Shown: piece after piece, positions 24,486 to 59,591 of the stretch
How the letters are laid out: each line of letters begins with the position of its first letter
How positions within the stretch are numbered: position 1 is the first letter of the stretch
Assembly (NCBI RefSeq): GCF_039634365.2
Contig: NZ_CP155079.2
Span: 3,410,001-3,474,000, forward strand
Reading direction: 5' to 3'
DNA: 64,000 nt
Source: Mucilaginibacter sp. PAMB04168
Lineage (GTDB): Bacteria; Bacteroidota; Bacteroidia; Sphingobacteriales; Sphingobacteriaceae
Translations under genes and position numbers: made by a program
The notes under the pieces: generated by a model
What the model was told of the DNA's origin: nothing
What the model saw: only the letters and a program-made list of their open reading frames with translations
The model's database searches: none

Positions 24486-24499
24486 GTTCAAGAAGTGAA

Positions 24500-29909: not shown

Positions 29910-29925
29910 ACTAAATCGGTTAAGT
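29910..29925. promoter_or_regulatory. LacI-type operator, proximal site of locus B
   Basis: ACTAAATCGGTTAAGT, an imperfect palindrome with the central CG typical of LacI-family operators. It lies three bases from the -7 box, between the -7 and -33 positions, where a bound repressor would block polymerase. Confidence 0.7.
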
Positions 29926-30044
29926 AATGTGATATAATAAGTTTTGTATAATTTTTATCTTTTAATATTATTTCTTGAGCAGTTTGTAGGTATATAACCT
30001 GATAATTAGAACTTTGTAAATGATCAGCGCATTTTACTCTACTA

Positions 30045-30060
30045 CGTAAACCGATTTAGT
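30045..30060. promoter_or_regulatory. LacI-type operator, distal site of locus B
   Basis: CGTAAACCGATTTAGT, the reverse-orientation match to the same consensus, centred 135 bases upstream of the proximal site. A second site at this range is compatible with DNA looping. Confidence 0.55.
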
Positions 30061-30372
30061 AAATTTACGTATTCGATAACTGCCGAGTAGTTTGGCGTGT
30101 CGGATTAAAAGGTACTAAGCAAAAGAAATAAAGTATATGATTGCAATTGAAGAACGTCACTGGCTGGCTATTGACGTTAACCAATTGTTTACCATGTTGT
30201 TGCCGAGGGAATGATACCAATTCATAATGATAACTCATTAGTAAACTTGTTTTAAGAACTGAAATTAACCATGTTTTACCTAATCTGAATGGAGCTTGGA
30301 CGCGGTTCAAAAACAGCTTAGATATTATAATCAATCAAAATAATCTTCTTACTAAGGACACTAAGCACGTAC

Positions 30373-31893
30373 TTAATACCCTGACGTAACGACCTTGGAA
30401 GCGCCACCGTCACTCTTAATAAACTTATAGTTCTCTACATGTTCACCTATGAAAATTCCACCCAGGTCTGATGTTTTGTAATACGATGGCTTCTGTGGCA
30501 TTGAGTCAAAAAGGTTCCTCCCGTTTATTGTCAGATTCTCAAAGGTGATATTCTTGATTTTATGTAATTCGTCATAACCCGTAATAATAGAAAGACTTGC
30601 CTTATCGCCCTTATAAACAATGTTTTTGAATAACACATCTTCAATTCCACGCCCCGGTGAGGTATTGTATTTTTTGTTAAACATTACCCTAAGGTTAATC
30701 AACTGTCCTTTACGAATATTATCTACCCTAATGCTGTCAAAAACAATCTCTTTTATCAAGTTATCATCACCAGCGTTTAATGCCAGGCAGCCTTGGTAAT
30801 CTAACTGGTTTTCGTGCTGGTCAAGAATATCAAGATTTGCAAATTTCATTTTGGACAAGGTGTCGGGATCCGCAGAATCACCATGCGTCCCAATCAGGAG
30901 CGGGTGAGCCATATCGGCCCACAGAACAGAGTTCTTAACGGTTATATTAGTACTGTTGCCATAATATTTCCAGCGATGGCCATAAATGGCAATACAGTCA
31001 TCCGAATTTCGCATAAAGACGCGATTGATATTTACGTTAGTGCAGCAGAAAATATCTAAACCATCACCGTTTCCCTCAAAGCTAAAGGATTTAATATTGT
31101 CGATATTAATATCACTGGACTGGCCCATCAGAACTGTATACTTGTGAGGTAATACAATTATACCTTCCATTTTAACATCTTTCGAATATTCTACAGTGAT
31201 CGCATCTGCTCTTCCATTGGCGTATTGCCGAGTAGCTGACCCGTTTCCGGCTCCAGGAGGCGCGTTGGGTTTAAACAATTGGGTAAGTATTCCATGTCCA
31301 TAGATCCTTACATTTTCGGCGTTAGAAACAATGAACCTACCTTGAACAACTGCTCCACCTGCAATGTAAACCCGTTGGCCGGATTTTAATACCATATCAC
31401 CAATTGTATGCAATCCGGGGCCGTAATAAACTAGGTTGGCACCCTGGGTTGGCTGCTGCTCTAAAGGATTTGCAAATAGGTGTAGATTATTGAATATATC
31501 TCCATTTACCTCCAACGAAAAGTTTTTCGGTTTACTTAGCTTAAGTAAGATGGAATTGCCTGTCACTTTAATTGGCAAATTTTCTTGGTTAGGACGTAGT
31601 TTAGCCTCGCTAACCTGTTCTTTCAAAACCTGGACGAGTACATCAACCTCACCCTGAAAGTCGAAATAAGCAAAGGAACTGATTTGTGGACTTGTTTTAG
31701 TGTCGGTTGTTTGAGCTACTTGAGCCATATAGACCGGAATAGGTAACCAACTACCTCCTTTCTGCCTTATAGAGACCTTATACCTTTCATTGTTGAGCGC
31801 ACTACCCTTTGGTGCGGGATAGTTAACTACCTGCGCACAAATTGCAGAAGTAAAAAAAGTCAGCCATAGGTTTAAAAATAACGTTTTTTTCAT
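30373..31893 (-). CDS. Secreted pectin-lyase-fold glycoside hydrolase (clan GH-N, GH28-like; GH49-like alternative)
   Basis: 506 residues from the ATG at 31893; the ORF extends 19 codons upstream but the signal MKKTLFLNLWLTFFTSAICAQ starts here. Residues about 25-145 form an N-terminal beta-sandwich (YKVSIRQKGGSWLPIPVYM ...), then a right-handed beta-helix (GDMVLKSGQRVYIAGGAVVQG; VRIYGHGIL). The catalytic Asp set of clan GH-N is visible as NGDGLD (275-280) and SDDCIAIYGH (297-306), with a downstream GTHGDS in place of the usual G/SHG. The N-terminal sandwich before the helix recalls GH49, whereas the motif spacing recalls GH28 polygalacturonases. Either way it should cleave an alpha-linked polysaccharide. 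Single gene directly downstream of the hybrid regulator; a C-tract motif lies 160 bases upstream. Confidence 0.85.
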   Translation of the reverse strand: MKKTLFLNLWLTFFTSAICAQVVNYPAPKGSALNNERYKVSIRQKGGSWLPIPVYMAQVAQTTDTKTSPQISSFAYFDFQGEVDVLVQVLKEQVSEAKLRPNQENLPIKVTGNSILLKLSKPKNFSLEVNGDIFNNLHLFANPLEQQPTQGANLVYYGPGLHTIGDMVLKSGQRVYIAGGAVVQGRFIVSNAENVRIYGHGILTQLFKPNAPPGAGNGSATRQYANGRADAITVEYSKDVKMEGIIVLPHKYTVLMGQSSDINIDNIKSFSFEGNGDGLDIFCCTNVNINRVFMRNSDDCIAIYGHRWKYYGNSTNITVKNSVLWADMAHPLLIGTHGDSADPDTLSKMKFANLDILDQHENQLDYQGCLALNAGDDNLIKEIVFDSIRVDNIRKGQLINLRVMFNKKYNTSPGRGIEDVLFKNIVYKGDKASLSIITGYDELHKIKNITFENLTINGRNLFDSMPQKPSYYKTSDLGGIFIGEHVENYKFIKSDGGASKVVTSGY

Positions 31894-32225
31894 CTTAATG
31901 ATCGTGGCAGTCCTCCCCAAAAGCAACAATTTTGAATTTGGTAAAGCCATTGGTTTAGCTTATTGAACTGCATTGCATGATCGGATACTTAAATCTGATC
32001 GTAACGCATAATGCATATTCAGTTCGCTAATTTGGTGGGTAAATCAGAAAGCCAAGGGGGGTATAGCGGTCATATAAAGGGGCCAAAATGGCAATTTCAT
32101 TCCCCATCTTCCACAATTTATGATTACAGCACTTTGATATATAGAATCGCCTGGCAAATCGATTCTGTTATATAATGCCGCTCTAAAAAAGGAACTAATT
32201 AAGCAAGCACTACAAATACATAAGT
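31894..32225. other. Upstream region of the GH28-like gene
   Basis: About 330 bases between the hybrid regulator stop and the GH28-like gene. It contains the C-tract motif at 32053-32064 and a second short C-run (minus GGCCCC at 32080-32085). No -7 box of the TAnnTTTG form is evident, which would fit activator-dependent expression. Confidence 0.45.
32053..32064 (-). promoter_or_regulatory. C-tract motif ATACCCCCCTTG (GH28-like gene)
   Basis: Minus-strand 12-mer identical to the one at 43258-43269 upstream of the locus C SusC gene. A further minus-strand GGCCCCTTTAT lies about 20 bases upstream of it. The shared placement (125-160 bases before a start codon, same strand) suggests a binding site, most simply for the hybrid regulator encoded between them. 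Confidence 0.5.
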
Positions 32226-35200
32226 TTAACTGCTTTTTGATTTTTGCCCTTTTAGTGTAGGGTTTAGTTTGTAGGCTGGAAGAAAAGCTCCTCTGTATTT
32301 TTTGATAAACCCGGAAGGGTTAGTTTTAAACAACTTTTGAAACTGTTCCCGAAAATATTTGATGTCTTGGAAGCCTACTTTGTAAGCGATTTCTTTAATC
32401 TGCAAATCAGTCTGAATCATTAACTCAGCAGCCTTACGAAGCCGAATGTACCGAATGAACTCACTTCCGGTCAGACCGCAAATGGATTTGATTTTCCGGA
32501 ATAATTTTGATCGGCTCATATTAAGTTCCTCAGCAAGTACAATCACAGTGAATTCTTCATTTTCCAAATGTTTTTCAATAACTACTATGCATTTATGTAA
32601 GAAATCACTGTATTCTGCCGGCACCTTTAATTCGTTGTTTTTTAAAGTGATTTCATTGAAAAAGTAATTTTTCAATGTATCTCTGCCCTTTAGTAAGCTT
32701 TTAATTTTGGCAACCAACAGATCGCTTTCAAAAGGCTTGCTGATGTAGTCATCTGCACCGCATTCTATCCCCTTTAATTTAATTTCCGGTGAAGAAGTAC
32801 CTGTAAGCAAAACAATTGGAATGTGGCTCAATGATGGGGCATCCTTCATATCAGAACAAAATTCCACGCCGCTTTTCCCCGGCATAATAACATCACAAAC
32901 AATGATATCTGGATGATGTTCCAGAACCAGCTCAAATCCTGCTTCGGCGTTCCCGGCTTCCAGTACGACATAACTTTTATCCAATAGGGATTTAACGTAG
33001 TTCCTGATCTCCTCATCATCGTCAATCAATAATACGACTGCCTTATTTTGAACAATTTCGTCCATCGCACCCGACTCAGAATTTATCCGAACAGCCGATG
33101 ATGATCGGAGCGGCTCGCTAGCAGCATCAGTTATAGCAATTTCCTGCAAGAGCGGCAAAGTATTACTCATAGAATTTGAAGCTGTTTCGAACCTCGCTTG
33201 ATCAATAGGTCTTACAGTGCGCTGTGGAAGCAGCACATTGAAGGAAGTTCCTCCTTCTTCCCTATTTGTATAACTAATGGCTCCTTTATGTAGCTCTACA
33301 AACTTTTTTGCTAAAAACAACCCTATTCCAAAACCGCTCTGTGCATGGCCGGATCCAGACTGGGATAGACGATAAAACTTATCAAAAAGTTTATCGCCAA
33401 CGTGGTTCGGTATACCCTCGCCATTGTCTTCAACAACCATTAATACCTGGTTATCTTTTAAACTTACGTCTAGCCTAACCGTCCCGCCAACAGGGGTGTA
33501 CTTTAACGCATTAGATAACAGATTAAACAGAACTATTTCGATTTTCTCCCGATCAGCTAACATTTCAGCATGCTCGTTCACGCATGAAAATTCATAAAAT
33601 ATTCCTTTTGACCTTGCCTGATTATTAAAGCAGATGAATACTTCCAGGCAAACCTCACGAAGCGTAAAAACAGAAAGATCGAGATCTGCTATCTCGTTTT
33701 CAGACTTTTTGAAAAGCATGATCTGATCAACCAGATTGAGCAGCCGTCTTGAGTTACGGTACACAGAACTTAAATCAATCAGGTCACGGTTTGCACCATC
33801 ACTCTGAAGTAAATCTTTAAGGGGGTTTACAATTAAGGTGAGTGGAGTTCTCAGTTCATGAGCGATATTAGTGAAGAAAGAGATCTTCTTTTCGTTGATC
33901 TCCTCTATAAATTTTAACTCATATTTTAGGCTGGTTTGCTTACGATGATAAAAAAGATAACCGTAAATGGAACTAAATATTAAAGTAAAGTAAAATGCAT
34001 AAGCCCACCAGGCCCGGTACCAAGGCGGTAAAATGACAATGGATATCCTTCTTTCTACCGTATTCCACAAACCTGAAGAATTTGTCGATTTAATCCTTAA
34101 GGTGTATGCACCCTCATTTAGGTGGGAATAGTTAATGGAGCGCTGGCTACCAACAAAATTCCAAACTTTATCTCTGCCCTGTAAGAGATAAGCATACTGT
34201 ATTTTTCCGGGAAGTGAATACTCTAGTGCAGCATAATCTAACGAAATAATGGCCTTATCGTATGGTAATGTTAATTTTTTAACTTGATAAATATTATCAG
34301 CATCAGGTAAATAATTTGAATTTGCCCCAACCGATAAATTGGCCAGGCGCACACCAGAGATAACCAAAGGAGGAAAGTCATGAAACTGTCTGACACTATC
34401 CGGATTAAAAATCGTAAAGCCTTTTATACCGCCAAATATCAGCTCACCTGTATGTAGCCGAACAGAAGCATTATAATAAAACTGGTTGGATTGCAGGCCA
34501 TCTGCAGCGTAATAATTCTCTATTTTACCACTGCGCTTGTTGAATTTGGACAGGCCATAATTGGTACTTGCCCATATGTTTCCTGCAATATCCTCTTCAA
34601 TATTAAGTACTTTGTTATTGCATAATCCATTAGCCTCGGTGTAATTAGATAGTTTACCCGTGCGAATGTTGTAAGCAAATAAACCTCTTCCATACGTTCC
34701 TATCCATAATAATCCAGAAGCGCTTTGATGCAAGGTCCGAACTGCTGCACCGAAATTCAAAACTTCTTTTATACCATGCTTTAAATCTGCCTTCAAAAGA
34801 CTGGTAAAGCTACCAAGCCAAAGGTGCTGATCATCAGCACTGGTTATGGTAAGAATATCCTGATTAACAGGGAAAGGAACTGGTTTTAACTCCTTGGCTA
34901 AAACATCATACATAAACAAACGGTTGTTACCACCATTTTTGCTATTTCCTCTCAATATCGACGCAAATATTCGTCCTTTTAAATCTGTATAAAGTTTCCA
35001 CACCGGGTTACGAAAACTCCGGTTGCTGAAGGGAACAGGGTCGAACCGGTTTGTGTTCCGATTGAATTTTTTAACGCCTTCGCCGCCAAAAATTCCAATC
35101 CATATTTGAGACTCATGATCCCTTGTAATACTCGAGATACGATTTCCGGACACTTGATCCCGACTGGTGAGCGATCCGGTAGGTATTTCGGTAAAACGTC

Positions 35201-36374
35201 CTGTAGCCCGCTTCCATAAACTTACACCGCCACCGTCCGTTCCAACCCAAACATTATCTCCATCCTCACAAAATGAAAAAGTAAAATTGTTATTTAAACT
35301 TGTGCTATTGCCGGGTTGATGGCTATAAGTAGTAAACTGATGTTTTTTATCATTTAAGATATCAATCCCTCCCCGCAACGTCCCAACCCACTTGCGACCT
35401 AATTCGTCTTCGTAAAGGGCATTGATTGCATCACTCGACAAATTACTTACTTTATAATACTGAAGACTAGCTATTGCCGGATTTGTAGTGGATGGAAGGT
35501 AAATGATACCCTTGCCATCTGTTGCGGCCCACAATTGTCCGCTTTTTGTCACTAATAAGTCGAAGATTTTGCAATTGTTGAGCTCAGAATCCCGGGAAGT
35601 AATAGAATACATCTTTTTAGATGGGATTTCATAACACAAAAGACCAGTCGTGGTGCCAATCCAAATAAATTTTGAGTTAACAATTTTTAAGGACGATGCC
35701 AGGGATTGAATTTTACAGCAAACTTTAAGTGAAGAAGTCTTGTGGTCATAGAAACACAAGCCGACATTGTTGACCATAACCCATACATTGTCGCTTTGAT
35801 CTACAGTGATGGCACTTGCTGTATAATTATCCAACTTTTTGCCATCCTTTTGAAGCGGAATGACATAAGCGTTAGCTTTTCCGGTTTCCTTGCACAATAA
35901 CCCTAATTCGTTGCAGGCGAAAAACACATCACCTTTCTTATTAAACTCTATACCATTGGTCCAATGTGTTGCCTTTATGAGTTGGTGATTGTTAATTTCG
36001 ATTGGTAAGATGCTGAATTGGAGAGTTTTATTATTTAGCAGCCCTATCCCTTTTTCTGTTCCAACCCAAAGGTTACCATGGACATCAGAATTTATACAAT
36101 TAACAAGATCATCTGGCAGGGAGGTGGAATCTTTGTATCGGTGTCGAAAGACTTTAAAATTATAACCATCAAACCGGTTAAGTCCGTCTTTCGTACCAAA
36201 CCACATTAACCCAATTTTATCTTTATGAATGGTGGTTACCGTATTGTTAGATAGCCCTTGTTCTATACCAAGGTAGTATAGGGGCTGACCTTTAACGTAA
36301 GTAGAACATAGAAAGGCCGTTAAAAAAAATAGCGCCCTAAAAAGTATCCGGCAGTTTAACCTCTGGCAATCCAT
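32226..36374 (-). CDS. Hybrid two-component system regulator (sensor kinase, receiver and AraC-type DNA-binding domains in one protein)
   Basis: 1382 residues from the ATG at 36374 (TTG two codons earlier unlikely); positions below are for the longer frame. Signal/anchor at about 10-30. Two-component-regulator propeller repeats run from 35 to about 660 (GLMWFGTKDGLNRFDG, NLWVGTEKGIG, NIWASTNYGLSKF). Y_Y_Y domain about 700-785, one membrane helix about 789-811, HisKA with phospho-His H841 in NIAHELRTPLTL, HATPase with NLLSNALKYTP (953-963) and DNGEGIP, receiver with DDD 1120-1122 and acceptor D1163 in CDVIMPGKSG, then an AraC-type HTH (1260-1370). Family knowledge: the periplasmic propeller binds an oligosaccharide and the AraC domain activates the adjacent utilization genes. 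It sits inside locus C, so locus C is its likely target. Confidence 0.97.
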   Translation of the reverse strand: MDCQRLNCRILFRALFFLTAFLCSTYVKGQPLYYLGIEQGLSNNTVTTIHKDKIGLMWFGTKDGLNRFDGYNFKVFRHRYKDSTSLPDDLVNCINSDVHGNLWVGTEKGIGLLNNKTLQFSILPIEINNHQLIKATHWTNGIEFNKKGDVFFACNELGLLCKETGKANAYVIPLQKDGKKLDNYTASAITVDQSDNVWVMVNNVGLCFYDHKTSSLKVCCKIQSLASSLKIVNSKFIWIGTTTGLLCYEIPSKKMYSITSRDSELNNCKIFDLLVTKSGQLWAATDGKGIIYLPSTTNPAIASLQYYKVSNLSSDAINALYEDELGRKWVGTLRGGIDILNDKKHQFTTYSHQPGNSTSLNNNFTFSFCEDGDNVWVGTDGGGVSLWKRATGRFTEIPTGSLTSRDQVSGNRISSITRDHESQIWIGIFGGEGVKKFNRNTNRFDPVPFSNRSFRNPVWKLYTDLKGRIFASILRGNSKNGGNNRLFMYDVLAKELKPVPFPVNQDILTITSADDQHLWLGSFTSLLKADLKHGIKEVLNFGAAVRTLHQSASGLLWIGTYGRGLFAYNIRTGKLSNYTEANGLCNNKVLNIEEDIAGNIWASTNYGLSKFNKRSGKIENYYAADGLQSNQFYYNASVRLHTGELIFGGIKGFTIFNPDSVRQFHDFPPLVISGVRLANLSVGANSNYLPDADNIYQVKKLTLPYDKAIISLDYAALEYSLPGKIQYAYLLQGRDKVWNFVGSQRSINYSHLNEGAYTLRIKSTNSSGLWNTVERRISIVILPPWYRAWWAYAFYFTLIFSSIYGYLFYHRKQTSLKYELKFIEEINEKKISFFTNIAHELRTPLTLIVNPLKDLLQSDGANRDLIDLSSVYRNSRRLLNLVDQIMLFKKSENEIADLDLSVFTLREVCLEVFICFNNQARSKGIFYEFSCVNEHAEMLADREKIEIVLFNLLSNALKYTPVGGTVRLDVSLKDNQVLMVVEDNGEGIPNHVGDKLFDKFYRLSQSGSGHAQSGFGIGLFLAKKFVELHKGAISYTNREEGGTSFNVLLPQRTVRPIDQARFETASNSMSNTLPLLQEIAITDAASEPLRSSSAVRINSESGAMDEIVQNKAVVLLIDDDEEIRNYVKSLLDKSYVVLEAGNAEAGFELVLEHHPDIIVCDVIMPGKSGVEFCSDMKDAPSLSHIPIVLLTGTSSPEIKLKGIECGADDYISKPFESDLLVAKIKSLLKGRDTLKNYFFNEITLKNNELKVPAEYSDFLHKCIVVIEKHLENEEFTVIVLAEELNMSRSKLFRKIKSICGLTGSEFIRYIRLRKAAELMIQTDLQIKEIAYKVGFQDIKYFREQFQKLFKTNPSGFIKKYRGAFLPAYKLNPTLKGQKSKSS

Positions 36375-36916
36375 CCTCAAAAATTTACAATTAACCCCTG
36401 CACAACCATTTAAGGCAATATGAATGAGGAGAAATGGTTATTAAAATTGGCTACTGCTAAATTAATATAATTGATGAGAACTAAAAAGAAAAGAGCTGTT
36501 CTTTACTTAATTCCTCAAAATGGTGAAAGTTTGATTCGGGCTTCAGATTTTTGGGGGAATTGTAAAAGTTTCGGTAAGCCTGTATAGTGCAAACTGCTTA
36601 TCTGCCCTTCTTCACTAAGGCGCCTGAGGACGGTTGATAATCTAACACTTTAACGACATCAAGTTTCGTTAGCTGCCAGTTGCCGAACGCTGCATGGCGG
36701 CAAACGATTCTGAGTTACCTAACATCTCAGAAGACGCTGCAATCTGTGCAGCGTGTTTAATACGTTTGTTACCATGAGTAAAGATGCTCATATTACAACC
36801 TCAGAGGAATTTATCAACCTTGGGATACAAGCAGGTTGACAAATTACCTCAAGGTTTATGGCACCGCATGCCAACAATTTTATATAGCCAGTATAGAGTT
36901 AATTGACCTGGTATGA
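36375..36916. other. Spacer between GH43 stop and hybrid regulator start
   Basis: About 540 bases with no gene. A GC-rich perfect hairpin, ACGCTGCA-ATCTG-TGCAGCGT, lies at 36734-36754, about 160 bases after the GH43 stop; it lacks a good T-run in either direction. The promoter for the regulator should lie near 36400-36500, but I see no clear -7 box. Confidence 0.4.
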
Positions 36917-37912: not shown

Positions 37913-37939
37913 AATATGTAGAGCAAAAAATTGTATAAA

Positions 37940-37970
37940 CAGCCTGCATCGGAATGCTCGATACAGGCTG
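37940..37970 (-). terminator. Hairpin between SusD and GH43 genes of locus C
   Basis: CAGCCTGCATCG and CGATACAGGCTG form a 12-bp stem with one G-T pair around a short loop. On the minus strand it is followed by TTTATACAATTTTTT, so it can act as a partial terminator or an mRNA-stabilising end that lowers GH43 expression relative to SusC/SusD. Confidence 0.6.
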
Positions 37971-37986
37971 ATTTGTTATCTGTTAT

Positions 37987-39798: not shown

Positions 39799-39806
39799 AT
39801 CTACGT

Positions 39807-43269: not shown

Positions 43270-43563
43270 TATGAAGGATTGTAAAGAAAAGCCGGTTAGA
43301 AAGCTTTGAAAAGTTAAAACAAGCTAAATGGATAAGTTTATTAAATTGAATAAGTTAATGCTCCAATAACTTTTTACTGAACTGAATCAGCGTCATTAAT
43401 TAAAGAACAAGAATTAACAGTTAACTTATACGAAACAGTTTACGGGAGATATACTTAGATAATTACCACCCTTGAATGCATCGATACCTAGTCGGTTGAT
43501 GTAGCTAAATTTTGCACCCTTTATTTGACTGAATTGCCACCGTTCCGCCCGGGTTCAACTTCC

Positions 43564-47775: not shown

Positions 47776-47790
47776 CAATTATCAAAATTT

Positions 47791-49538: not shown

Positions 49539-50777
49539 TTATTTATGCTTGACTTGATAGAACTTTGCGCCAAACATAAAGATTACTGCGTAACAAACAA
49601 TTGGCAAGTAATAAGCTGTTGCCACATCATGATTAGCAATCAGCCCCATCAGCATCGGGAAAAACGCCCCACCTACTACACCCATAGAGATAAATGAGGA
49701 GGCTTGCTGGGTTTGTTTGCCCAGGTTCTTGATTCCAAGGCTGAATATGGTAGGGAACATGATACTGAAAAAGAAATTAATCATGAAAAGCGCCACATAA
49801 GAAACCCATCCCAATTTCTGAGCAACAATCAGGCACATGAGAATACTTCCCACAGCAAACGCGGCCAACAACTTGTTAGGAGCAATAAACCGCATTAAAA
49901 ATGTGCCTACAGCCCGGCCAATAGCCATCATCGCCATAAAAATGCTCATATAGCCTACGGCTGTGGCATCACTTAAGCCCATTACTTCATGGCCATAGTT
50001 AATAAAAAAAGCCCAAGTGCCGCCCTGAGCCGCAACGTTAAAGAACTGCGCAATAACGGCCCACACAAAATGGCGGTGTTCATACAGCTTCTTCCTGGGT
50101 TCAGTATCAACATTAACAGATTCAGGATCAACATGGGTGCCTTCTGCCGTGTGCGGATCGGTCAATACTGGAATGCGGAGAAAGAAAAAAACGAATGCAA
50201 TTAAAACGATGACACAGCCGATACCGACATACAATGTTTTTACGGAAGATAAATGGTCTTCTTGGCCACCAGAAGCATGAAACAAAAAGTATTCGCCTAT
50301 TTGCGGACCAACAATTGCACCTACTGCATTAAAAAATTGGGAAAGATTTACGCGTTGATCACTGGTACGTTGATCGCCCAAGGCAGCTGCGAAGGGGTGA
50401 GCTACTGTCTCGAGTGTTGCCATACCACAACCCAATACGAACAAGGCAATCCGGAAATAGCCGAAAGAACCAGCATTGGCTGCCGGCACAAACAGAAAGG
50501 TACCAATAGCAAATAGACTTAACCCCAGGATGACTCCAGGTTTATAACCAAATCTCTTTAAAAAATAGCCCGCAGGAATGCTCATAACGAAATAGGCACC
50601 AAATACAGAGAATTGAATTAAGCCAGATTGAGATTTTGACAGCTGAAGTACATTTTGAAAATGTTTATTTAAAACATCACTCATTGAATGTAGCAATCCC
50701 CACATCAAGAATAACGATGTTACAAATATGAAAGTGATAAGATATCTTCTTTCAGTAAAAGTCGCTTTTTGTTCCAT
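49539..50777 (-). CDS. Sugar MFS transporter, FucP-like
   Basis: 412 residues with 12 membrane helices. Opening ITFIFVTSLFLMWGLLHSMSDVLNKHFQ and the GYKPGVILGLSLFAIGTFLF and ATLETVAHPFAAALGD segments are characteristic of the L-fucose/glucose-galactose permease branch. Established members are proton symporters for L-fucose, galactose or glucose. The substrate cannot be read from sequence; a sugar released by the GH97/GH43/GH88 enzymes of the same operon is expected. It starts 14 bases after the ROK kinase stop, linking import with phosphorylation. Confidence 0.93.
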   Translation of the reverse strand: MEQKATFTERRYLITFIFVTSLFLMWGLLHSMSDVLNKHFQNVLQLSKSQSGLIQFSVFGAYFVMSIPAGYFLKRFGYKPGVILGLSLFAIGTFLFVPAANAGSFGYFRIALFVLGCGMATLETVAHPFAAALGDQRTSDQRVNLSQFFNAVGAIVGPQIGEYFLFHASGGQEDHLSSVKTLYVGIGCVIVLIAFVFFFLRIPVLTDPHTAEGTHVDPESVNVDTEPRKKLYEHRHFVWAVIAQFFNVAAQGGTWAFFINYGHEVMGLSDATAVGYMSIFMAMMAIGRAVGTFLMRFIAPNKLLAAFAVGSILMCLIVAQKLGWVSYVALFMINFFFSIMFPTIFSLGIKNLGKQTQQASSFISMGVVGGAFFPMLMGLIANHDVATAYYLPIVCYAVIFMFGAKFYQVKHK

Positions 50778-50791
50778 GCAATGTTAGGTGG

Positions 50792-51694
50792 TTAAGATTT
50801 AGATTGGTTGTGAAGATTATGCTCAAAGGTGAATGCAGCACCAATTAAGGCAGCATCCTCGCCCAAAAGGTCTGTTACAACAAAGTTGGGGTCTATATAT
50901 GGCGCTAATTGTATTTGTAACTCATTCAAAAACAAATGTTTTGATTTTGCAATGTTACCTCCAATCAGCACTTTTTGGGGCTGATGGCTAACTACCTTAT
51001 CCGTTATAAATGCGGCAAAACTTCTGGCAAAAGAAAGAAAGACACTGCTCGCATTACTATCAACGTCGGCAAGTTCGGCTAAGTCCTTTACATTGTTGCA
51101 ACTCACGCCTGCCAAAAGTGAATATGCTTTAAGGAACCAGCGCGTTGAAAAGTAATCATCGGCAATACTGCTACCAAAACACTCGCTTCCCCAATTGGCA
51201 TCAGTTGTGACGCCCGCCATACTCACTGCCGATCCCATTCCCGTCCCCAGCGTAAATCCGATTAAACGGGAGCAATCCTGTCCGGATCCAGCCATTACCT
51301 CGCCATGCACTAACGCTTCCGCGTCATTACGAAACCTGATATTTTCAGGTTCCAGTTTGAGAAGGCTTGCCAGGCCTTCTTTCACATTAATCCCGTAAAG
51401 AAGTTCATACTTATGCAAGCCTTTGATGAAAGAAACACCGGTTTCATAATTGAAAGGGCCTGGCATGGCTAATGCTAAACGCGTGATTTTTTCCGGAAAT
51501 ACCGTCAATACCGCTTTAATAGCATCAGACCATACCGAAAGAATTCTATCTGCCGAATCTTGTGCGTTGACGGGGCGTCTCGTACGGGTATCTTTTACTA
51601 TAGATTTATTAAGCAAATCAATTACAGCAACAGTAATGTGCGATCCGCCTATGTCGGCACTAATAATGAACTTCTCTTCGCTTGGTATCTTCAT
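50792..51694 (-). CDS. ROK-family sugar kinase
   Basis: 300 residues from the ATG at 51694 (a TTG two codons earlier is less likely). The ATP-binding DIGGSHITVAVID opening, GPFNYETG, FRNDAEALVHGE with catalytic-type Asp, and GFTLGTGMGSAV are ROK hallmarks. The zinc-binding CxCGxxGC motif common in ROK proteins is absent (SECFGSS is in its region), which is known in some members. No N-terminal helix-turn-helix, so it is a kinase and not a repressor. It would phosphorylate the hexose imported by the FucP-like permease. It lies 26 bases after the GH97 stop. Confidence 0.9.
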   Translation of the reverse strand: MKIPSEEKFIISADIGGSHITVAVIDLLNKSIVKDTRTRRPVNAQDSADRILSVWSDAIKAVLTVFPEKITRLALAMPGPFNYETGVSFIKGLHKYELLYGINVKEGLASLLKLEPENIRFRNDAEALVHGEVMAGSGQDCSRLIGFTLGTGMGSAVSMAGVTTDANWGSECFGSSIADDYFSTRWFLKAYSLLAGVSCNNVKDLAELADVDSNASSVFLSFARSFAAFITDKVVSHQPQKVLIGGNIAKSKHLFLNELQIQLAPYIDPNFVVTDLLGEDAALIGAAFTFEHNLHNQSKS

Positions 51695-51720
51695 TAACAA
51701 AAAAGTAAAAAAAGCATCGG

Positions 51721-53694
51721 TTATTTTGAGGGTGTCAGGTAAATTGCTTCTCCTCCTGAGGCAAATAAATTAGCTTGTAGAACAGATTTATAATTTACCC
51801 TAACTGTCTGCACCTTGACATGTGTGGTGGTATTTAGCCCCGGATCATCACTGTAAATGGTAGCCGTGTACTGGCTGTCTTTCTTTAAAAAGTCTAATTG
51901 AAGGCTGAGTTTCCTCGCATCGTTATTGGTGATGATGCCAACGTACCAATCATCTCTACTTCTGCGAGCGGTGGCAATATAGTGACCGGGTAAGCCTGCA
52001 ATAACTTTAGTTTCGTCCCAACTGGTAGGAATCTTTTTCCAATAATCAAGTTCAGGTTCACCGTGGTATTGAGACGGCCTGTCGTACCAGAATAATGTTT
52101 GAATAGGACTGTAATACACGGCTGCAAGCGCCAGTTGATGGGCATGAGTTGTTTTAATACGTTTATCAAAGTAACAGATCGTATAATCAGCCGCTCCGGC
52201 TATATATCGCGTAAACGGCAGTACCGTGTTATGTGTAGCGTCGGGCATTTCCTCATTTCCACGAATCCCTTCTGCTGTCATTAGATTGGGCCAGGTACGT
52301 TGCTCTCCGGTAGGGCGCCAATCGTCATGAATATTCACCATGATCTGCTGGTCGGCGGCTTGGTGAATTGCTTTTTCAAGCCAGGTCGTCCAGCGGTGAG
52401 AACCCACCTGTACAAAACCAAATTTCACGCCTTTTACACCCCATTTTTTGTAATAAGTAAATAAGCTATCGCTTTGAGCAAGCAAGGCTTGTTGATTAAC
52501 ATACAGCCAGACACCTATTCCCTTGTTAGATCCATACTGAATAATACCTGGCAGGTCGAAATCAGGAATAGCTACTTTGGTGGCATCCGAGCTGAAACTG
52601 AATGCCGGGCCATACCATTTCCAATCAAATAATATGTACTGTAAACCTTGTTGCGCAGCAAAATCGATGTTCGCTTTAGCCTCAGCTGTAGTCAAATTCA
52701 TTACGCGCATAATTTTTCCGGGTTTAATCCACCCCGGGTTTTGAATCTGATTAGGAGGGTTTAAATTCAGCAGCAAACTATTGTTCTCAATTAACGCCCC
52801 TGGTGAGTTCGCAACCATAATGACTCTCCATGGTGTAGCTACCGGGGAAATCAAAGCTGCCTCGCCTGCCATTGAGGTAACGAGTGTATTAGGCTTATCA
52901 TTACTTAAACGGAACTTGGCCCGTGCATAGTCAACCATCTGCGCTTCTGCGAGACAAGCATAAATGCCGCCCGGCAACTCCAGTGTTAGCGGTCGTTCAC
53001 TTTCACCAGGCCAATTTTTAAGTGGTAGTTTTTGATAAGGCGCTTGCGCCCAATTGGCAAGCCAGGCCATTGTTCCATCTGGTAACGAAAATTCAGTGTT
53101 TTCACTGGTTATGTTATAGTATGTACCTTTCGGATTTTCTGGAAAGCGATAGCGAATAGCGGCTCCTTCATCGTAAGCACGAATTTCAAGATACATTACA
53201 TAGATCGGATTATCATCTTTAACAAACGCTATGGTAGCTGCATTGTAGCAATCTCTGATTTGGGCTTGTTCGCCATAGACCGGCTTCCACAAAGAATCTT
53301 TGCTTGATGTTACAACCCCGGTCACTTTCAGATTTTCAAACCATCTTTGATGAGTATCTACCTGCAGTGCCATTGCCTTTTCAGATAAATTGTTATCCAG
53401 CCGCAAATCCAGTTCGGATTCCTTTATCACCGTCTTTCCATAAAAATCGACTGAATAGTACATCCTTCGGTGCCCTTCATCCCCCGTCTGATGAAAGTCG
53501 ATCTGCAGGTTTCCGTTGGGAGATTTTAATACAGTATGCTGAATGGCCGTAGTTTGTCCTTCGGCCGATGTGCAAATCACACACATCAGTTGTATTATAC
53601 AGGTAACCACTGCTTTGTTTATAGCAATCTTGTTGAATCCCCGACGCGACACTTGTATTAGCCAACATGACAGCAAAGAACGACTTGTCTTCAT
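51721..53694 (-). CDS. GH97 glycoside hydrolase (second of two)
   Basis: 657 residues. An N-terminal extension of about 25 residues precedes a signal-like segment (KAVVTCIIQLMCVICTSAEGQ), so the true start may lie downstream; no internal Met offers a better signal start before it except one inside the hydrophobic core. GH97 features: VLKSPNGNLQIDF, LQYILFDWKWYG (351-362), VKGVKFGFVQVG (420-431), VNIHDDWRPTG (453-463), TAEGIRGNEEM (473-483), and a final GGEAIYLTP. E475 and E481 fit conserved acids. Like its paralogue it has KFGF with Gly at 426. The start follows the GH88 stop by two bases, so translation is coupled. Confidence 0.93.
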   Translation of the reverse strand: MKTSRSLLSCWLIQVSRRGFNKIAINKAVVTCIIQLMCVICTSAEGQTTAIQHTVLKSPNGNLQIDFHQTGDEGHRRMYYSVDFYGKTVIKESELDLRLDNNLSEKAMALQVDTHQRWFENLKVTGVVTSSKDSLWKPVYGEQAQIRDCYNAATIAFVKDDNPIYVMYLEIRAYDEGAAIRYRFPENPKGTYYNITSENTEFSLPDGTMAWLANWAQAPYQKLPLKNWPGESERPLTLELPGGIYACLAEAQMVDYARAKFRLSNDKPNTLVTSMAGEAALISPVATPWRVIMVANSPGALIENNSLLLNLNPPNQIQNPGWIKPGKIMRVMNLTTAEAKANIDFAAQQGLQYILFDWKWYGPAFSFSSDATKVAIPDFDLPGIIQYGSNKGIGVWLYVNQQALLAQSDSLFTYYKKWGVKGVKFGFVQVGSHRWTTWLEKAIHQAADQQIMVNIHDDWRPTGEQRTWPNLMTAEGIRGNEEMPDATHNTVLPFTRYIAGAADYTICYFDKRIKTTHAHQLALAAVYYSPIQTLFWYDRPSQYHGEPELDYWKKIPTSWDETKVIAGLPGHYIATARRSRDDWYVGIITNNDARKLSLQLDFLKKDSQYTATIYSDDPGLNTTTHVKVQTVRVNYKSVLQANLFASGGEAIYLTPSK

Positions 53695-53696
53695 GA

Positions 53697-54920
53697 CTAT
53701 AGATTTTGGTATAAACGCTTACCAACCTGAAGTTTCTTTAACCGGACAAGGGCTTCCAGGTAATAATAATCAGCATAGATTATTGATGCATCAATTTCGG
53801 AGCCATTAGGATGATGCCCGGTAGAATGCAATAGCGCTGCCGAATTTACATCCCTACTTTGATATTGAGCTGATGATAACGCTTTTAGCATTTGCTCAGC
53901 TTTTTGACGGTATAAGCGGGCCTGGCTTTTATCCTTCACAAAGGTTGACAGCTCGAGTAAAGCAGACGCAGTAATTGCTGCGGCTGACGCATCACGAGAC
54001 TCGTTTGGTATATTGGGTGCATTAAAATCCCAATATGGCACCATGTCTTCGGGAAGCTTTGCAAGGTATATACCAGCTACTTTTTGTGCAAAATGCAAAA
54101 ATTGCGGATCTTTAGTTTCCCTGTAACACATCGTGTAACCATATATGGCCCATGCCTGCCCCCTTGCCCACATACTGCTGTCTGAATAACCCTGGTGTGT
54201 AATGCCTTTAATTTTCTTTCCGGTTACTGTATCGTACACTACCACATGATAGGCGCTATAATCTGGACGGAAATGGTTCTTCATAGTTGTCTTTGCATGG
54301 GTAGATGCAATTTCATATAATCTTTTAGGGCCCCCATTTTTAGATGCCCAAAACAGCAGTTCTAAGTTGATCATATTATCGATGATTGTATTATGCGGCC
54401 ACCCCATACGTTTAACATTTTGAGGCCAAGATAATATTGTTCCGATTTTAGGATTAAATAGTGTAGCTAACGAATCTGCTGCCTTAAGTATAACCGCTTT
54501 GTATTCCAGATTTTTGGTTAAACGGTAGCCGTTACCAAAGCTGTTGAACAACTGAAAACCCAAATCATGATCAAATCCGGGCTCACTGGCAATCGGCGTT
54601 AATTGGCGTGTAAATTTATCGGCTTCAGACAGCCATTTTTTATTGTGCGTGCTTTCATATAAATACCAAAGTTCACCGGGCCAAAAGCCACTACACCAAT
54701 CCCGGTAGGTTGTAAATTTCCATTTATTCTGACCATTTTGAATATTTCGGGGCATATTCAACTCAGAATTGTTCGGTATAAGCTTAAGTACTTTATTAGC
54801 CTGGCTGGCGCAGTAATTTATATTGTAGATTGCTGAGAATGGTTGTTGTGCATAGGTATTTGAAACCAAACATAGACAACTTAAAAATAAGACAGCAATG
54901 TGTTTAATAGCCAATTTCAT
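53697..54920 (-). CDS. GH88 unsaturated glucuronyl hydrolase
   Basis: 407 residues from the ATG at 54920. The frame opens 33 codons earlier, but MKLAIKHIAVLFLSCLCLVSNTYAQ is a clear signal peptide, so the internal start is used. The (alpha/alpha)6 barrel has CSGFWPGELWYLYE, D119 in FDHDLGFQLFNSFGNGYRL and D181 in TIIDNMINLELLFWA, which match the two catalytic Asp residues of unsaturated glucuronyl hydrolases. Such enzymes remove the 4,5-unsaturated uronic acid left by a polysaccharide lyase. First gene of the operon; two PF05426 lyases encoded nearby could make its substrate. A LacI-type operator and -7 box lie about 290 bases upstream. Confidence 0.94.
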   Translation of the reverse strand: MKLAIKHIAVLFLSCLCLVSNTYAQQPFSAIYNINYCASQANKVLKLIPNNSELNMPRNIQNGQNKWKFTTYRDWCSGFWPGELWYLYESTHNKKWLSEADKFTRQLTPIASEPGFDHDLGFQLFNSFGNGYRLTKNLEYKAVILKAADSLATLFNPKIGTILSWPQNVKRMGWPHNTIIDNMINLELLFWASKNGGPKRLYEIASTHAKTTMKNHFRPDYSAYHVVVYDTVTGKKIKGITHQGYSDSSMWARGQAWAIYGYTMCYRETKDPQFLHFAQKVAGIYLAKLPEDMVPYWDFNAPNIPNESRDASAAAITASALLELSTFVKDKSQARLYRQKAEQMLKALSSAQYQSRDVNSAALLHSTGHHPNGSEIDASIIYADYYYLEALVRLKKLQVGKRLYQNL

Positions 54921-55204
54921 GGTAATATTCCTTAATCTTCTATTTATAATTTCTAAATGTTTGGCCATGTTAACTACATCATCACGCCTGCCTGCAAACA
55001 TTTTATTATTGAGCAGCAAGCTCCAGTTATCATTACCGAACCGTTGTCTTTATAGATGCGTACTTTAATCTATCTCTGACGGCCCTTTAACGATAAGATA
55101 GCTTACTAACAAGCCATCTTTAAAGCATGGTCCTTAAATCGCGTTGCCAAAAAAACTATAAAGTTCAGTTATCATGAGCCGCAGAATAGAAAGAAGCTCG
55201 CGTT

Positions 55205-55212
55205 CAAAAATA
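55205..55212 (-). promoter_or_regulatory. -7 box TATTTTTG of the GH88 operon
   Basis: Minus-strand match to TAnnTTTG, giving a leader of roughly 285 bases before the ATG at 54920. The LacI-type operator begins three bases upstream of it, exactly as at locus B. Confidence 0.5.
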
Positions 55213-55215
55213 ATT

Positions 55216-55231
55216 ACTAAATCGATTAAGT
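55216..55231. promoter_or_regulatory. LacI-type operator, proximal site of the GH88 operon
   Basis: ACTAAATCGATTAAGT, the best match to the palindromic consensus in the window (only positions 4 and 13 fail to pair). Overlaps the spacer between -7 and -33. Confidence 0.7.
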
Positions 55232-55421
55232 TAATGTCGCAGGTGTGATTTGCTTAAAATTCATTAGCTTCTAAAATCTATTAGGAATCCAGAGCGCGGA
55301 TTTAATTTAATCTGCACTTTTCTTAAAATAAAGTCACTTTAATTGAATTTTTAACAATAGCTATACCCCTTTATCTGTATGTCTTGTTTAAACGTCTACC
55401 AGTATAAGCGGTCAGTAAATT

Positions 55422-55437
55422 ACTAAATCAGTTAAGT
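55422..55437. promoter_or_regulatory. LacI-type operator, distal site of the GH88 operon
   Basis: ACTAAATCAGTTAAGT, differing from the consensus only at the central CG (CA). It lies 206 bases from the proximal site. Confidence 0.55.
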
Positions 55438-55761
55438 GGAGAGCAGGTGATTTTACATTACTTGGCGTGAGTGGAGGAATCAGCGCATTTGTAAACAATG
55501 CAGGTGCACGCTGTAAAAAGCTGGAGAAACAAGATTATGAGTTGGCATACTTCATCATTCAAGCTTCAAAACTATTTCATTGCAAACACACGTTTTTAAG
55601 CATTAAAAAGAATAGCGTTAAACGGGTACAAGTGAATTAAAAGAGCTTAAAACCAGGTAAACGCTGAATACTTAAACACGTTGATTCCATAGTATTTAAA
55701 CAAACAGCACTTATGATGATCTTTACAGATACTAATGAAAGCTCGCTAATTTCCCGATTAT

Positions 55762-56796
55762 TTAAAGCATTACAACTTGCTTGCGAGTTGTAGAATTTCG
55801 AACTATAAGGGAAGTGGCTAATTGGACAACTCTTGGGGCACTCTCACCATCATTGTCCAGTTGTTCCAGAATTAGTTGAACGGTTTGGTCGCAAATAGCT
55901 TGAATAGGTTGGGATATTGCCGTGATTGAAGGTTTGAAAAGGCGGAACAGATTAGCGTCGTCGAAAACGATAATACCTATTTGTTGTGGGATTTTAAGGT
56001 CAAGGTTCAGTATTGCTTCAAGACCATTCTCGGCCAGATAGTTGGTTGCAAAAAATACGGCATCGATATTTGGGTTATTTTTCAAATAATCTTCAATATC
56101 AGCTACTGTCTTTTCTTTTTGTTCATGGTATTTCAATTTCATTACATAGGATTGCCGACCTGCCTCTTTTATACACTCCAGGTATCCCCTTTCGCGTTCT
56201 TTCATCTGCGCTTGGTCAGAAGCCAATGTAATCATTGCAATATGTTGATAATCATTATCCAGAAAATGCTGAATAGCCCGGGTGGTACCTTTAAAATTAT
56301 CAACTAAAACACAACTGCTGTCTACCTCTGCAAGCGGCCTGTCAAAGAATACAACTGGTATCTTGTCATCAATTAGCTCTTGCACTGCCTGTTCAATTCC
56401 TGGCGCCGGAGCAATGATAAATCCGTCCACTTGATGGTTACGGAACACTTGGATAAGATCTTTTGTGACCTCCGTGTTATTCTCCGTGCTACCATAAACG
56501 ATACGATAACCTTTATTCCCTAATATCTCTTCGAAACGCCTGGCAATTGTAGAAAAGAAAGCATCTGAAATATCCTCAATCAATATTCCAATAGTTTTAC
56601 TGCGGCCGGTACGAAGGCCTTGAGCCATTCTGTTAGGTCTATAACCAACTTTCTCAATATGCTTTAAGACCTTTTTTTGCATGGCCTTGCTGATACCGTT
56701 TTCATCTGCCTTACCATTCAAGACAAAAGACACTGTTGTTTTGGATACATTGAGCTGTTCAGCAATATCCTTTATAGATAATTTTTTTTTCATCAT
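55762..56796 (-). CDS. LacI-family transcriptional regulator
   Basis: 344 residues from the ATG at 56796. The N-terminal HTH LSIKDIAEQLNVSKTTVSFVLNGKA is followed by the hinge helix region NRMAQGLRTGRSKTIGILIEDISDAFFS, the standard LacI minor-groove linker, then a periplasmic-binding-protein-like sensor domain (QVDGFIIAPAPG, VFFDRPL, IGIIVFDDANLFRLFKPSITAISQPI). Established role: sugar-responsive repressor or activator. The ligand is unknown. A match to the local operator consensus lies 60 bases before its start, so it probably controls itself, and the same site occurs at locus B, the GH88 operon and the large lyase gene. It is transcribed separately between the operon and the lyase. Confidence 0.95.
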   Translation of the reverse strand: MMKKKLSIKDIAEQLNVSKTTVSFVLNGKADENGISKAMQKKVLKHIEKVGYRPNRMAQGLRTGRSKTIGILIEDISDAFFSTIARRFEEILGNKGYRIVYGSTENNTEVTKDLIQVFRNHQVDGFIIAPAPGIEQAVQELIDDKIPVVFFDRPLAEVDSSCVLVDNFKGTTRAIQHFLDNDYQHIAMITLASDQAQMKERERGYLECIKEAGRQSYVMKLKYHEQKEKTVADIEDYLKNNPNIDAVFFATNYLAENGLEAILNLDLKIPQQIGIIVFDDANLFRLFKPSITAISQPIQAICDQTVQLILEQLDNDGESAPRVVQLATSLIVRNSTTRKQVVML

Positions 56797-56856
56797 CAAC
56801 GTTCAGCAGTCTTGTATTCGAGAGATTTTTAAAACGCAAATTACGAAAAGTGAAAA

Positions 56857-56871
56857 ACTAAATCGATTTTA
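56857..56871. promoter_or_regulatory. LacI-type operator upstream of lacI
   Basis: ACTAAATCGATTTTA, sharing the first ten bases of the consensus, 60 bases upstream of the lacI ATG. Suggests autoregulation. Confidence 0.55.
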
Positions 56872-57047
56872 ATTTACTATTAGAAATACAATCCGTTATT
56901 AGCTTAAATACTAGCATTATCTCTTTTCACCTCGAAAGTGCTACGAGCCAAAAACAGACCGACATTGTGAATAAGGTAAAGAGATAGAACTGCAAGGCAG
57001 TTGAAGTAGTTACGGCTAAACTGTCAAATCAAACTTCTTTATATGAA

Positions 57048-59060
57048 TTACCTCGTAATCTTCACCTCGCCAAACCTCACCGTAGTAGGTACATCTTTTA
57101 TTCCGGAATAAACCAACATCCCAAAATCGCCACTCTTTTTGCAATTCAATTGTGCTGAACCAGCTGTCATCCACGTCTTACCGTCTGTGGAGTAAGCAGC
57201 TGTGAACAAATTGTTTTCACGCTCCAATTTCAACCATACCGGGCCAGTTAACCGATTGTAAGTGACTGCAGGTTCGCTGATAACGGGCGACGTGTAAATA
57301 ATGTCGGAACTATCTGATGATGCAGTTCGAGCCCGTAATTGCACTACCCATCCAGGTGCTTCGATTTGGGATGTCGATCGGGGCGACACAACTATTTCAA
57401 CGCTTTTTGACCCAACATCTGACGCCTCACGGAATGTTAAACCAAAGCCTGTAAACTGTGAACTTAATTGTGGAATATATTTCCCTCCGATAGTAGCATC
57501 ACCATTAACTGCTTTGGTCACAAACATAGCCTTATCATAGGGAACATCCATGCCCATTCCACTACTTTGAATGATAAACGTGTTGTCAATGTAATTTACT
57601 ACACTTTGACGCTTAGCGGAAAGATCAGTTTGCTTCCATCCTGAAGGCAATCCAGCACTAATTGCTAAAGGATAGGCGTTTGAACTTTGCACTTCTCCGT
57701 TTACAGAACATACCGTATAACGATATTGATTGCCTTTAGCGGCAGACAGGTCATAGAAAGCAGCATGTTTAATGCCTTTAGCAATTATTTTAAAGGTACC
57801 TTCACCATCTTGCGCCCGCTTTACTATGTAAGATGTTGCTCCAATAACCGGGACCCAAGTTAAGTGAATAGATTTGCTTTCATATTCTGCATGAAGTCCT
57901 GCAGGCGCAACCAAAATGTTGTTATGCGATCTATTTTTGTTGGCACCATTGTCTGCTCTCGAATAAAGGAAAGTTCCGAAGCCAATATGATCTGCGCCTG
58001 GCAAACCCTGCAGTTCGGGCCTGACTTTCTCTGCCGCCTGCTGGGTATACGGCGCTTGCGCACTAATACGATGAACATAGTGGTTGTAAACTTCTTCATA
58101 AACAGCTCTTAACTTCCCCCTGTCCTGTTCCGAAATACGAGGATGTAAGTATTTACCAGTTCTGTCCATTGCAGGCACATAAGGCACTTCCATACCTAAA
58201 TTGTACTTAGCAGTGTATTCAAATCCCTTCAGGAGGCGGTTATCGTAAATGCTGTATAAATTAAGGCCTTGGTTCCATGCCATCTCCGAGCAGTCAGCCA
58301 GGTGCGCTATCCCCAGTTGTGTGTGGCCCTGATCACGCCCGCTTTCCTGGCATTGACCTTGTTCATTAATGATATAATTGGGTAAACTTCCGTCGCCCCA
58401 GCCATATTGGTAGTAAACAATAGCCCGTTCAAACATCATGCGATCATTACAGAATATAGCAATAGCCATCATTGTCTTAAGGGCGGCAGAATCCCAATTT
58501 CCGTTAGCAAATGGCGCAAAATCTTTGATTACCGGGTAAATCACCGTTTTGAAATGCACCTCGGCCTTTTTAATGTCATCTGATCTCCAACCAGCATTTG
58601 TGTACCGTAGAATTTCTGCTGCATTAACCATTTTAAATGGCCCGAGTCCGGCCATCAGCACAGCATCCCTACCTGTAATTTCTTGGAGTGTGCTAGCCCA
58701 TTTGTTAATAATTTCTTTAGACTTTTCTGCATAGCGCTGCTCACCTGTTACAGTCCACATAATGGCATTTTGGTAAGCAGCGTTTGCATCTGCATCATAA
58801 ATTGCTTGCCCAACTGTTGGGTTTCTCCCTACGGTAGGCATAGCCCCCTGCACTTTATAGTCGGGTTGTGATTGAGCATGCGCCTTAAAAACTAAATAAC
58901 CGGCATAGAGAGGCTGGGAAGAGTTAAGAACTCCTTTCTTCAAACGGACTAAGTCCTCCTGACTTTGTAATATTCCCGGATGAATAAATGGTTGCGCCTG
59001 CAGCGAAATAACTTTGAGCAAAAAAACAGATAGAAAAATACCTTTTGAAATTATTTTCAT
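57048..59060 (-). CDS. Multidomain PF05426-type polysaccharide lyase
   Basis: 670 residues, signal peptide ending SLQAQ (1-23), not a lipoprotein. The lyase domain covers about 25-365 with AYQNAIMWTVTGEQRY (95-110), NAAEILRYT (146-154), NGNWDSAALKTMMAIAIFCNDR (186-207) and CQESGRDQGHTQLG (237-250). A fibronectin-III-like domain (about 378-465; AGLHAEYESKSIHLTWVPV) and a C-terminal concanavalin/DUF1349-like domain (about 475-670; FTAAYSTDGKTW) follow. The ESGRDQGH motif is identical to that of the lipoprotein paralogue at 43619, though the rest differs considerably. It should cleave a uronate-containing polymer to products with unsaturated ends. It stands alone, with a LacI-type operator and -7 box about 510 bases upstream. 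Confidence 0.88.
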   Translation of the reverse strand: MKIISKGIFLSVFLLKVISLQAQPFIHPGILQSQEDLVRLKKGVLNSSQPLYAGYLVFKAHAQSQPDYKVQGAMPTVGRNPTVGQAIYDADANAAYQNAIMWTVTGEQRYAEKSKEIINKWASTLQEITGRDAVLMAGLGPFKMVNAAEILRYTNAGWRSDDIKKAEVHFKTVIYPVIKDFAPFANGNWDSAALKTMMAIAIFCNDRMMFERAIVYYQYGWGDGSLPNYIINEQGQCQESGRDQGHTQLGIAHLADCSEMAWNQGLNLYSIYDNRLLKGFEYTAKYNLGMEVPYVPAMDRTGKYLHPRISEQDRGKLRAVYEEVYNHYVHRISAQAPYTQQAAEKVRPELQGLPGADHIGFGTFLYSRADNGANKNRSHNNILVAPAGLHAEYESKSIHLTWVPVIGATSYIVKRAQDGEGTFKIIAKGIKHAAFYDLSAAKGNQYRYTVCSVNGEVQSSNAYPLAISAGLPSGWKQTDLSAKRQSVVNYIDNTFIIQSSGMGMDVPYDKAMFVTKAVNGDATIGGKYIPQLSSQFTGFGLTFREASDVGSKSVEIVVSPRSTSQIEAPGWVVQLRARTASSDSSDIIYTSPVISEPAVTYNRLTGPVWLKLERENNLFTAAYSTDGKTWMTAGSAQLNCKKSGDFGMLVYSGIKDVPTTVRFGEVKITR

Positions 59061-59563
59061 TTTAGATTTTTGGTTAGTGTACTTTCATGTGATTTTAATT
59101 TTACAATCATCATGTATTCTCACTCTTGGTTAGCTATAATAGATAACATCTTGGTTCATGTAATGTATCTTAAACTGCTTCCGCGTATTCAAATCAATCT
59201 CAAACGCGGCAGTGCTTATAGTAAATAACCTACAACTAAGTTGAATTTCTCAAGCAATTAAAAGGACCGTAACGAAACCATAAAATGCAATTCGATATCG
59301 GAATAGCCGGTTTTCTGTCTCACGAGATACTAAACTGCTTGATTAATGATCACATTCAATCTGAAAAGCATAAAATTAAAATACGGTTCGCTAATAATCT
59401 TGATAGTCTTCTATCTTCGATGCGTAATACGGTTTTACTTCTGTTTAAGATCTAAATTCGTGTAACAGGATTAGACCCGCATTCACCCATCAATAACCAA
59501 TTTATCTATTTAATCATTGTTGAGCTCCTAAAGTCACCTTACTTTAAAATTGATTTGCTACAG

Positions 59564-59571
59564 CAAACTTA
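59564..59571 (-). promoter_or_regulatory. -7 box TAAGTTTG of the large lyase gene
   Basis: Minus-strand match to TAnnTTTG, four bases from the LacI-type operator. The implied leader is about 500 bases, which is long, so another promoter nearer the gene is possible. Confidence 0.4.
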
Positions 59572-59575
59572 GTTA

Positions 59576-59591
59576 ACTTAAACGATTTAGT
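59576..59591. promoter_or_regulatory. LacI-type operator upstream of the large lyase
   Basis: ACTTAAACGATTTAGT; its reverse complement ACTAAATCGTTTAAGT matches the consensus at all fixed positions. Confidence 0.65.

Follow-up and report, generated by a model that had tools for sequence, protein, structure and literature searches.

A conserved LacI-type operator ties dispersed polysaccharide-utilisation genes of a Mucilaginibacter genome into one predicted regulon

The window, by which we mean the whole 64-kb stretch of DNA analysed here, belongs to a 5.44-Mb Mucilaginibacter genome and carries four units of interest, all on the minus strand. The first, locus B, encodes a SusC-type TonB receptor (26518-29826; Pfam, NCBIfam TIGR04056), a SusD-type lipoprotein (24500-26509), a DUF5017/PKD surface protein (23562-24491) that also follows SusD_B in the related genomes G121, G193 and G256, and, at its end, a CHRD-domain protein (23028-23543), the last three assigned with Pfam; upstream of locus B, Pfam also identified a GH28 gene and a hybrid two-component regulator (HTCS). 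The second is an operon in the order GH88, GH97, ROK kinase, FucP-like symporter, GH43 and GH97, with successive intergenic gaps of 2, 20, 14, 110 and 114 bp. Its first gene encodes a GH88 unsaturated uronyl hydrolase (53697-55019; Pfam), the best solved relative of which is 3wiw (E 2.5e-87), a PDB entry filed as glycosyl hydrolase family 88. The others encode the GH97a glycosidase (51721-53694; Pfam, PDB relatives), a ROK-family sugar kinase (50792-51700; Pfam, NCBIfam, PDB), a FucP-like MFS sugar:H+ symporter (49539-50777; TIGR00885, 301.7 bits against a cut-off of 280.4), a GH43 enzyme of the arabinofuranosidase/xylosidase type (47791-49428; Pfam, PDB) and the GH97b glycosidase (45808-47676; Pfam), which has an operator of its own in G121 and G278. 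The third unit is the gene for a LacI-family regulator (55762-56799), and the fourth encodes an Alginate_lyase-fold protein with Fn3-like and DUF1349 regions (57048-59060; Pfam, PDB Fn3 match), the DUF1349 match being weak. The combination of a SusC/SusD pair and co-located carbohydrate-active enzymes that marks a PUL is present in the window.

What might join these units? The sequence-only reading had proposed that six copies of a LacI-type operator place locus B, the GH88 operon, lacI and the lyase gene in one regulon, and a scan of the window recovered all six. The 16-bp dyad ACTAAATCGNTTAAGT occurs exactly at 29910, 55216 and 59576 (minus strand); the site at 55422 has one mismatch, and the site at 30045 (minus strand) has three. 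At 56857, the left half and the centre are perfect and the right half is degenerate (ACTAAATCGATTTTAA). The even-length palindrome with a central CG that is expected of a LacI local regulon was thus found in the dyad itself; the centre of 55422 is CA instead of CG. As proposed, every site is located upstream of a unit on the minus strand; the lyase start codon is 516 bp from its site. Across genomes, the centre is CG in 27 of 27 promoter-proximal sites, which were picked for having a -7 box.

The motif is highly specific to this region. With up to three mismatches to ACTAAATCGNTTAAGT, the window has 11 matches against 2.8 expected, and none of 100 shuffles gave as many. Pattern searches of the whole genome found only the four window copies, all intergenic, with zero or one mismatch, so that the motif does not occur at random frequency across the genome; the 16 two-mismatch copies outside the window all fall within long ORFs. 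An exact 14-mer core at 2272319 was rejected as a regulon member, since it falls in a coding frame, and the looser pattern CTWAAHCGDTTWAG with one mismatch was uninformative, its 63 matches against 57 in the control being at background level. We also scored the window with an independent matrix built from 24 sites of other genomes and none from the window. The six sites took ranks 1 to 6, with 23.6, 23.3, 19.0, 17.9, 16.5 and 12.8 bits, and rank 7 was 36168, within the HTCS gene; this site and the weak sites at 43340 (locus C) and 40321 were rejected as background with the same matrix. Under a first-order Markov model, about 0.09 matches of at least 16 bits and about 0.85 of at least 12 bits are expected in 64 kb. 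Judged by their scores against this expectation, five of the six sites can be regarded as secure and the lacI site (56857) cannot.

The three exact copies share a further feature. The sequence TAnnTTTG, the flavobacterial sigma-A -7 consensus (PMC9723704), starts 19, 19 and 20 nt gene-ward of the operator start at 29910, 55216 and 59576, respectively. At locus B, the primary operator (29910-29925; 23.3 bits) is followed 3 bp downstream by the predicted -7 box TAATTTTG (29899-29906); at the GH88 operon, the best operator of the window (55216-55231; 23.6 bits) is followed by TATTTTTG (55205-55212); and at the lyase promoter, the operator (59576-59591; 17.9 bits) is followed by TAAGTTTG (59564-59571), all of these elements being on the minus strand. 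Among intergenic sites of at least 20 bits in other genomes, 9 of 10 have TAnnTTTG at 18-22 nt from the operator start (17 of 25 among sites of at least 15 bits across genomes), as do all three sites in the window, against 0.96% of positions in the intergenic background (p 7e-18 for the other genomes and p 9e-7 for the window). The aligned operator promoters show no consistent -33 TTG.

Because the dyad adjoins a -7 box at three promoters, the common sequence might be taken for a promoter element or for a recently copied promoter region instead of an operator. We give this explanation hardly any credence: the sequence is a dyad with a central CG, the second copies at 30045 and 55422 are without a -7 box, other promoters of the genome lack the dyad, and the aligned promoters have almost nothing in common beyond the operator and the -7 box, their flanks being unrelated. 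The predicted -7 boxes place the operator over the core promoter, as expected of a repressor. A protein bound in the spacer between the -33 and -7 elements excludes RNA polymerase, and the promoter architecture, in which the operator would fill this spacer, therefore favours steric repression. Some LacI-family proteins, such as CcpA, activate when bound upstream, and the auxiliary operators in the window do lie upstream, which is compatible with activation; the window LacI could thus be an activator or a mixed regulator rather than a simple repressor at these promoters. Established promoter architecture argues against this, in that the primary operators fill the polymerase-excluding position, and we regard such a role as unlikely.

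The two main promoters have second, upstream operators on the minus strand. At locus B, this operator (30045-30060; 19.0 bits) lies 135 bp from the first, and at the GH88 operon (55422-55437; 16.5 bits) it is 206 bp away. Paired operators before SusC_B also occur in G121, G193 and G256, at 69, 67 and 66 bp, respectively, and G278 has a second operator 77 bp away at another SusC promoter, so that the spacing at SusC promoters is 66-77 bp in four relatives versus 135 bp in the window. At GH88 promoters of relatives, the distances are 224 and 108 bp. These spacings correspond to 6.3-24.9 helical turns without a common phase. The window LacI (345 aa) aligns to residues 2-329 of the 360 residues of E. 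coli LacI, the alignment ending before the C-terminal tetramerisation helix of the E. coli protein. Because both a common helical phase and this helix are missing, DNA looping between the paired operators is unsupported, and binding that is local and either cooperative or additive is the likelier mode.

The same operator was found in related genomes, which the sequence-only reading had named as a place to look. LacI orthologues in Mucilaginibacter and several related genera lie alongside the same genes, often contiguously, and the units in these relatives are preceded by CTAAAyCGrTTwAG. The clearest case is G121 (Mucilaginibacter sp. PPCGB 2223), the nearest named relative, which is of the same genus and has a LacI 73% identical to that of the window (G278, 73%; G193, 58%). 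Here, the genes that are scattered over 36 kb in the window form one contiguous block of about 22 kb (376-399 kb), with GH43-like, MFS, GH97a and GH88 genes in its first part and SusC_B, SusD_B, DUF5017, CHRD, GH97b, lyase, GH43_C, ROK and lacI in its divergent part. Most of the best matches in G121 to a symmetrised matrix made from the window sites alone were at promoters of this block: the interval between GH88 and SusC_B holds four operators, GH97b and ROK are each preceded by one, and lacI has a weaker one in front of it. A 20.9-bit site at 427412 of G121 lies inside a reading frame.

Arrangements similar to that of G121 are found in G278, G193, G006, G108, G020, G073 and G256, the scattered genes of the window being largely contiguous in G193. 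Orthologous genes preceded by operators were detected with the window-only matrix in G121, G006, G108, G020, G073, G034, G278 and G193, a conservation that is not fully independent of ascertainment, as most comparison loci were found via LacI itself. In G278, the operators precede GH97b-lyase, GH88-GH43_C, GH97a-ROK-MFS and a SusC gene, and in G193 they precede SusC_B, GH88 and a GH43_C-GH28 unit. In G006 and G108, which belong to other genera, operons of GH88, ROK and MFS genes stand behind the perfect palindromes ACTAAACCGATTTAGT, with GH97a added in G006, GH28 added in G108 and GH43b just before lacI in both. In G278, the lyase orthologue has the operator upstream, and the same is probably true of G121, where its 12.4-bit site is inside an over-long ORF call (an exact core at 393255 immediately precedes the lyase homology, inside an over-long automatic ORF call). 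In G118, G093 and G089, the LacI proteins are 47-52% identical, yet the sites are few or weaker, which indicates that the motif drifts with LacI identity. Beside a LacI of 40% identity in G052 (C1:5934989-5945101, L132), three SusC genes follow one another, each with a LacI-type palindrome in front of it.

Which protein, then, would bind the operator? The product of 55762-56799 has the helix-turn-helix and periplasmic-binding-protein-like effector domains of the LacI family (PF00356, 47.5 bits with a cut-off of 27; PF13377, 89.6 bits), its closest solved relative is CcpA, and its orthologues adjoin the operator in several genera, so it is the probable repressor of the regulon. It is the only one of the six LacI-HTH proteins of the genome with the recognition helix VSKTTVSFVLNGKA, which its orthologues retain with small changes. 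The exact palindrome CTAAAYCGRTTTAG occurs in 8 of 151 family genomes, namely in 5 of the 10 with the closest LacI versus 3 of the other 141 (Fisher 2e-5), and in two of these three it is at most 11 kb from a LacI of 40-45% identity. An alternative is that the operator is real and is bound chiefly by some other member of the LacI family, or that several such proteins share it. In G121, a good, near-identical dyad at 448167 stands in front of another LacI-like gene (27% identical), and specificity may therefore overlap with another LacI; in G256, several LacI genes share the locus. In the genome studied here, however, the helices of the other five LacI-HTH proteins (VSTGTVDRVLH in two, LSTSTVSRAL, ISAATVSRGL and LSAATVSRAL) differ from VSKTTVSFVLNGKA, and the motif follows the orthologues of the window LacI across genera; we consider this alternative improbable. 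The G256 locus (C125:10242-14920, L142) has, in one stretch, two LacI paralogues of 56% identity and a third of 25%, which may reflect duplication of the regulator.

Autoregulation of the regulator gene is typical for LacI local regulons and is not obligatory. The candidate autoregulatory site upstream of lacI (56857-56872, minus strand) ranks sixth in the window, and at 12.8 bits it is near background; in the relatives, there is a 14.8-bit site at lacI of G121 and none of at least 12 bits directly before lacI in G278. Autoregulation of lacI thus appears weakly supported, and the membership of lacI in its own regulon, as first proposed, stands less firmly than that of the other three units, for which specificity, cross-genome operators and gene linkage support one LacI regulon.

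The regulon also has limits. The claim that loci A and C are without the operator agrees with the independent matrix, the upstream scores being 5.5 for locus A and 7.3 for locus C, both background, as are those for GH28 (2.7) and the HTCS (0.1); no additional operator was found by this matrix in the 110- and 114-bp gaps of the GH88 operon. Locus A (3270-17301) consists of two tandem SusC/SusD pairs with GH3, GH18 and ThuA-domain proteins. In relatives, SusC_C-like, GH43_C/GH43 and GH28 genes are under the operator; in this genome, it may be that locus C and GH28 have dropped out of the regulon or that they answer to the HTCS. The HTCS gene (32226-36380) lies between loci C and B without a LacI operator, and an HTCS of 37-48% identity adjoins the regulon in several relatives, an adjacency that suggests two-layer control. 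This position, together with the fact that HTCS proteins often control PULs (PMC3878776), raises the alternative that the HTCS acts on these genes through the dyad. We find that very improbable, in that the dyad tracks LacI and the sites predicted for HTCS proteins are direct repeats with a spacing of about 21 bp (PMC3878776), not a 16-bp palindrome.

Taking the sites, their specificity and conservation, the promoter geometry and the gene linkage together, we propose, with a probability of roughly 0.9, that a dimer of the window LacI represses three units (locus B, the GH88 operon and the lyase gene) by shutting out RNA polymerase until a product of the polysaccharide releases it. In this model, the 16-bp dyad would be the operator of the protein encoded at 55762-56799, and the dimer would sit in the -33/-7 spacer, blocking the polymerase at locus B, the GH88-GH97-ROK-MFS-GH43-GH97 operon and the lyase gene, with the second upstream operators at the two main promoters probably strengthening repression. 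A breakdown product of the polysaccharide would enter the cell and bind the periplasmic-binding-protein-like domain, and release of the repressor would switch on capture at the surface, trimming in the periplasm and uptake into the cytoplasm together.

The enzymes give a hint of the substrate. In relatives, the neighbours of the regulon include a GH106 rhamnosidase, GH127 and other arabinofuranosidase-type enzymes, and GH28; taken with GH88, GH43 and the lyase, they suggest a plant heteropolysaccharide that is acidic and carries rhamnose and arabinose, for instance a gum or a rhamnogalacturonan. We infer, as the sequence-only reading did, that all of the genes would serve one substrate and that its product would be phosphorylated.

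Discussion of PUL control in Bacteroidota has centred mostly on HTCS, SusR and ECF sigma factors. PULs under these regulators likewise combine SusC/SusD with glycosidases; here, in contrast, the regulator is a soluble LacI-family protein, and the adjoining HTCS apparently does not use the dyad. Compared with E. coli LacI, PurR and Bacillus CcpA, the window LacI has the same protein architecture and a dyad operator, and E. coli LacI uses auxiliary operators too, whereas the operator sequence differs and the tetramerisation helix of E. coli LacI is missing. LacI local regulons with CG-centred even palindromes, and with sugar genes near the regulator as here, are well described (Front Microbiol 2014;5:294, PMC4052901); that survey covers the Bacteroidetes through one taxonomic group (Bacteroides), whereas the present case is of the Sphingobacteriaceae type, with SusC/SusD import and several PUL units. 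The Bacteroides proteins KdgR, UxaR, UxuR and UxmR are LacI-family uronate regulators (BMC Genomics 2013;14:873, PMC3878776). Compared by description, both systems are instances of LacI-family control of uronate-related catabolism in Bacteroidota, but those proteins govern for the most part monosaccharide pathways of the cytoplasm and control few extracellular genes, whereas SusC/SusD and secreted enzymes belong to the predicted regulon here. Our literature search on LacI regulons of PULs in Sphingobacteriaceae or Pedobacter found no description, which is not proof of absence.

The regulation described here is well conserved but fairly ordinary, a usual LacI-regulon prediction of moderate surprise. 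Its interest lies in a LacI operator that is sharply defined, conserved and set at a constant place in the promoter; it links dispersed clusters into one pathway, lets the regulon membership of genes in relatives be predicted and offers a design of regulated promoters for a genus with few tools. On a broader scale, we see about even chances that a Sphingobacteriaceae-wide LacI clade governs whole PULs, including SusC/SusD, through a spacer operator and a second one upstream, beside or instead of HTCS and with non-tetramerising dimers.

Two observations concern the lyase. From the operator and the -7 box, a leader of about 500 nt is predicted (59061-59563) without a convincing ORF, and as Rfam gave no match anywhere in the window, this long leader is not a known riboswitch. 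In G193 (C8:273397-282453, L141), the regulon region encodes a 3018-aa protein that is weakly similar to the window lyase.
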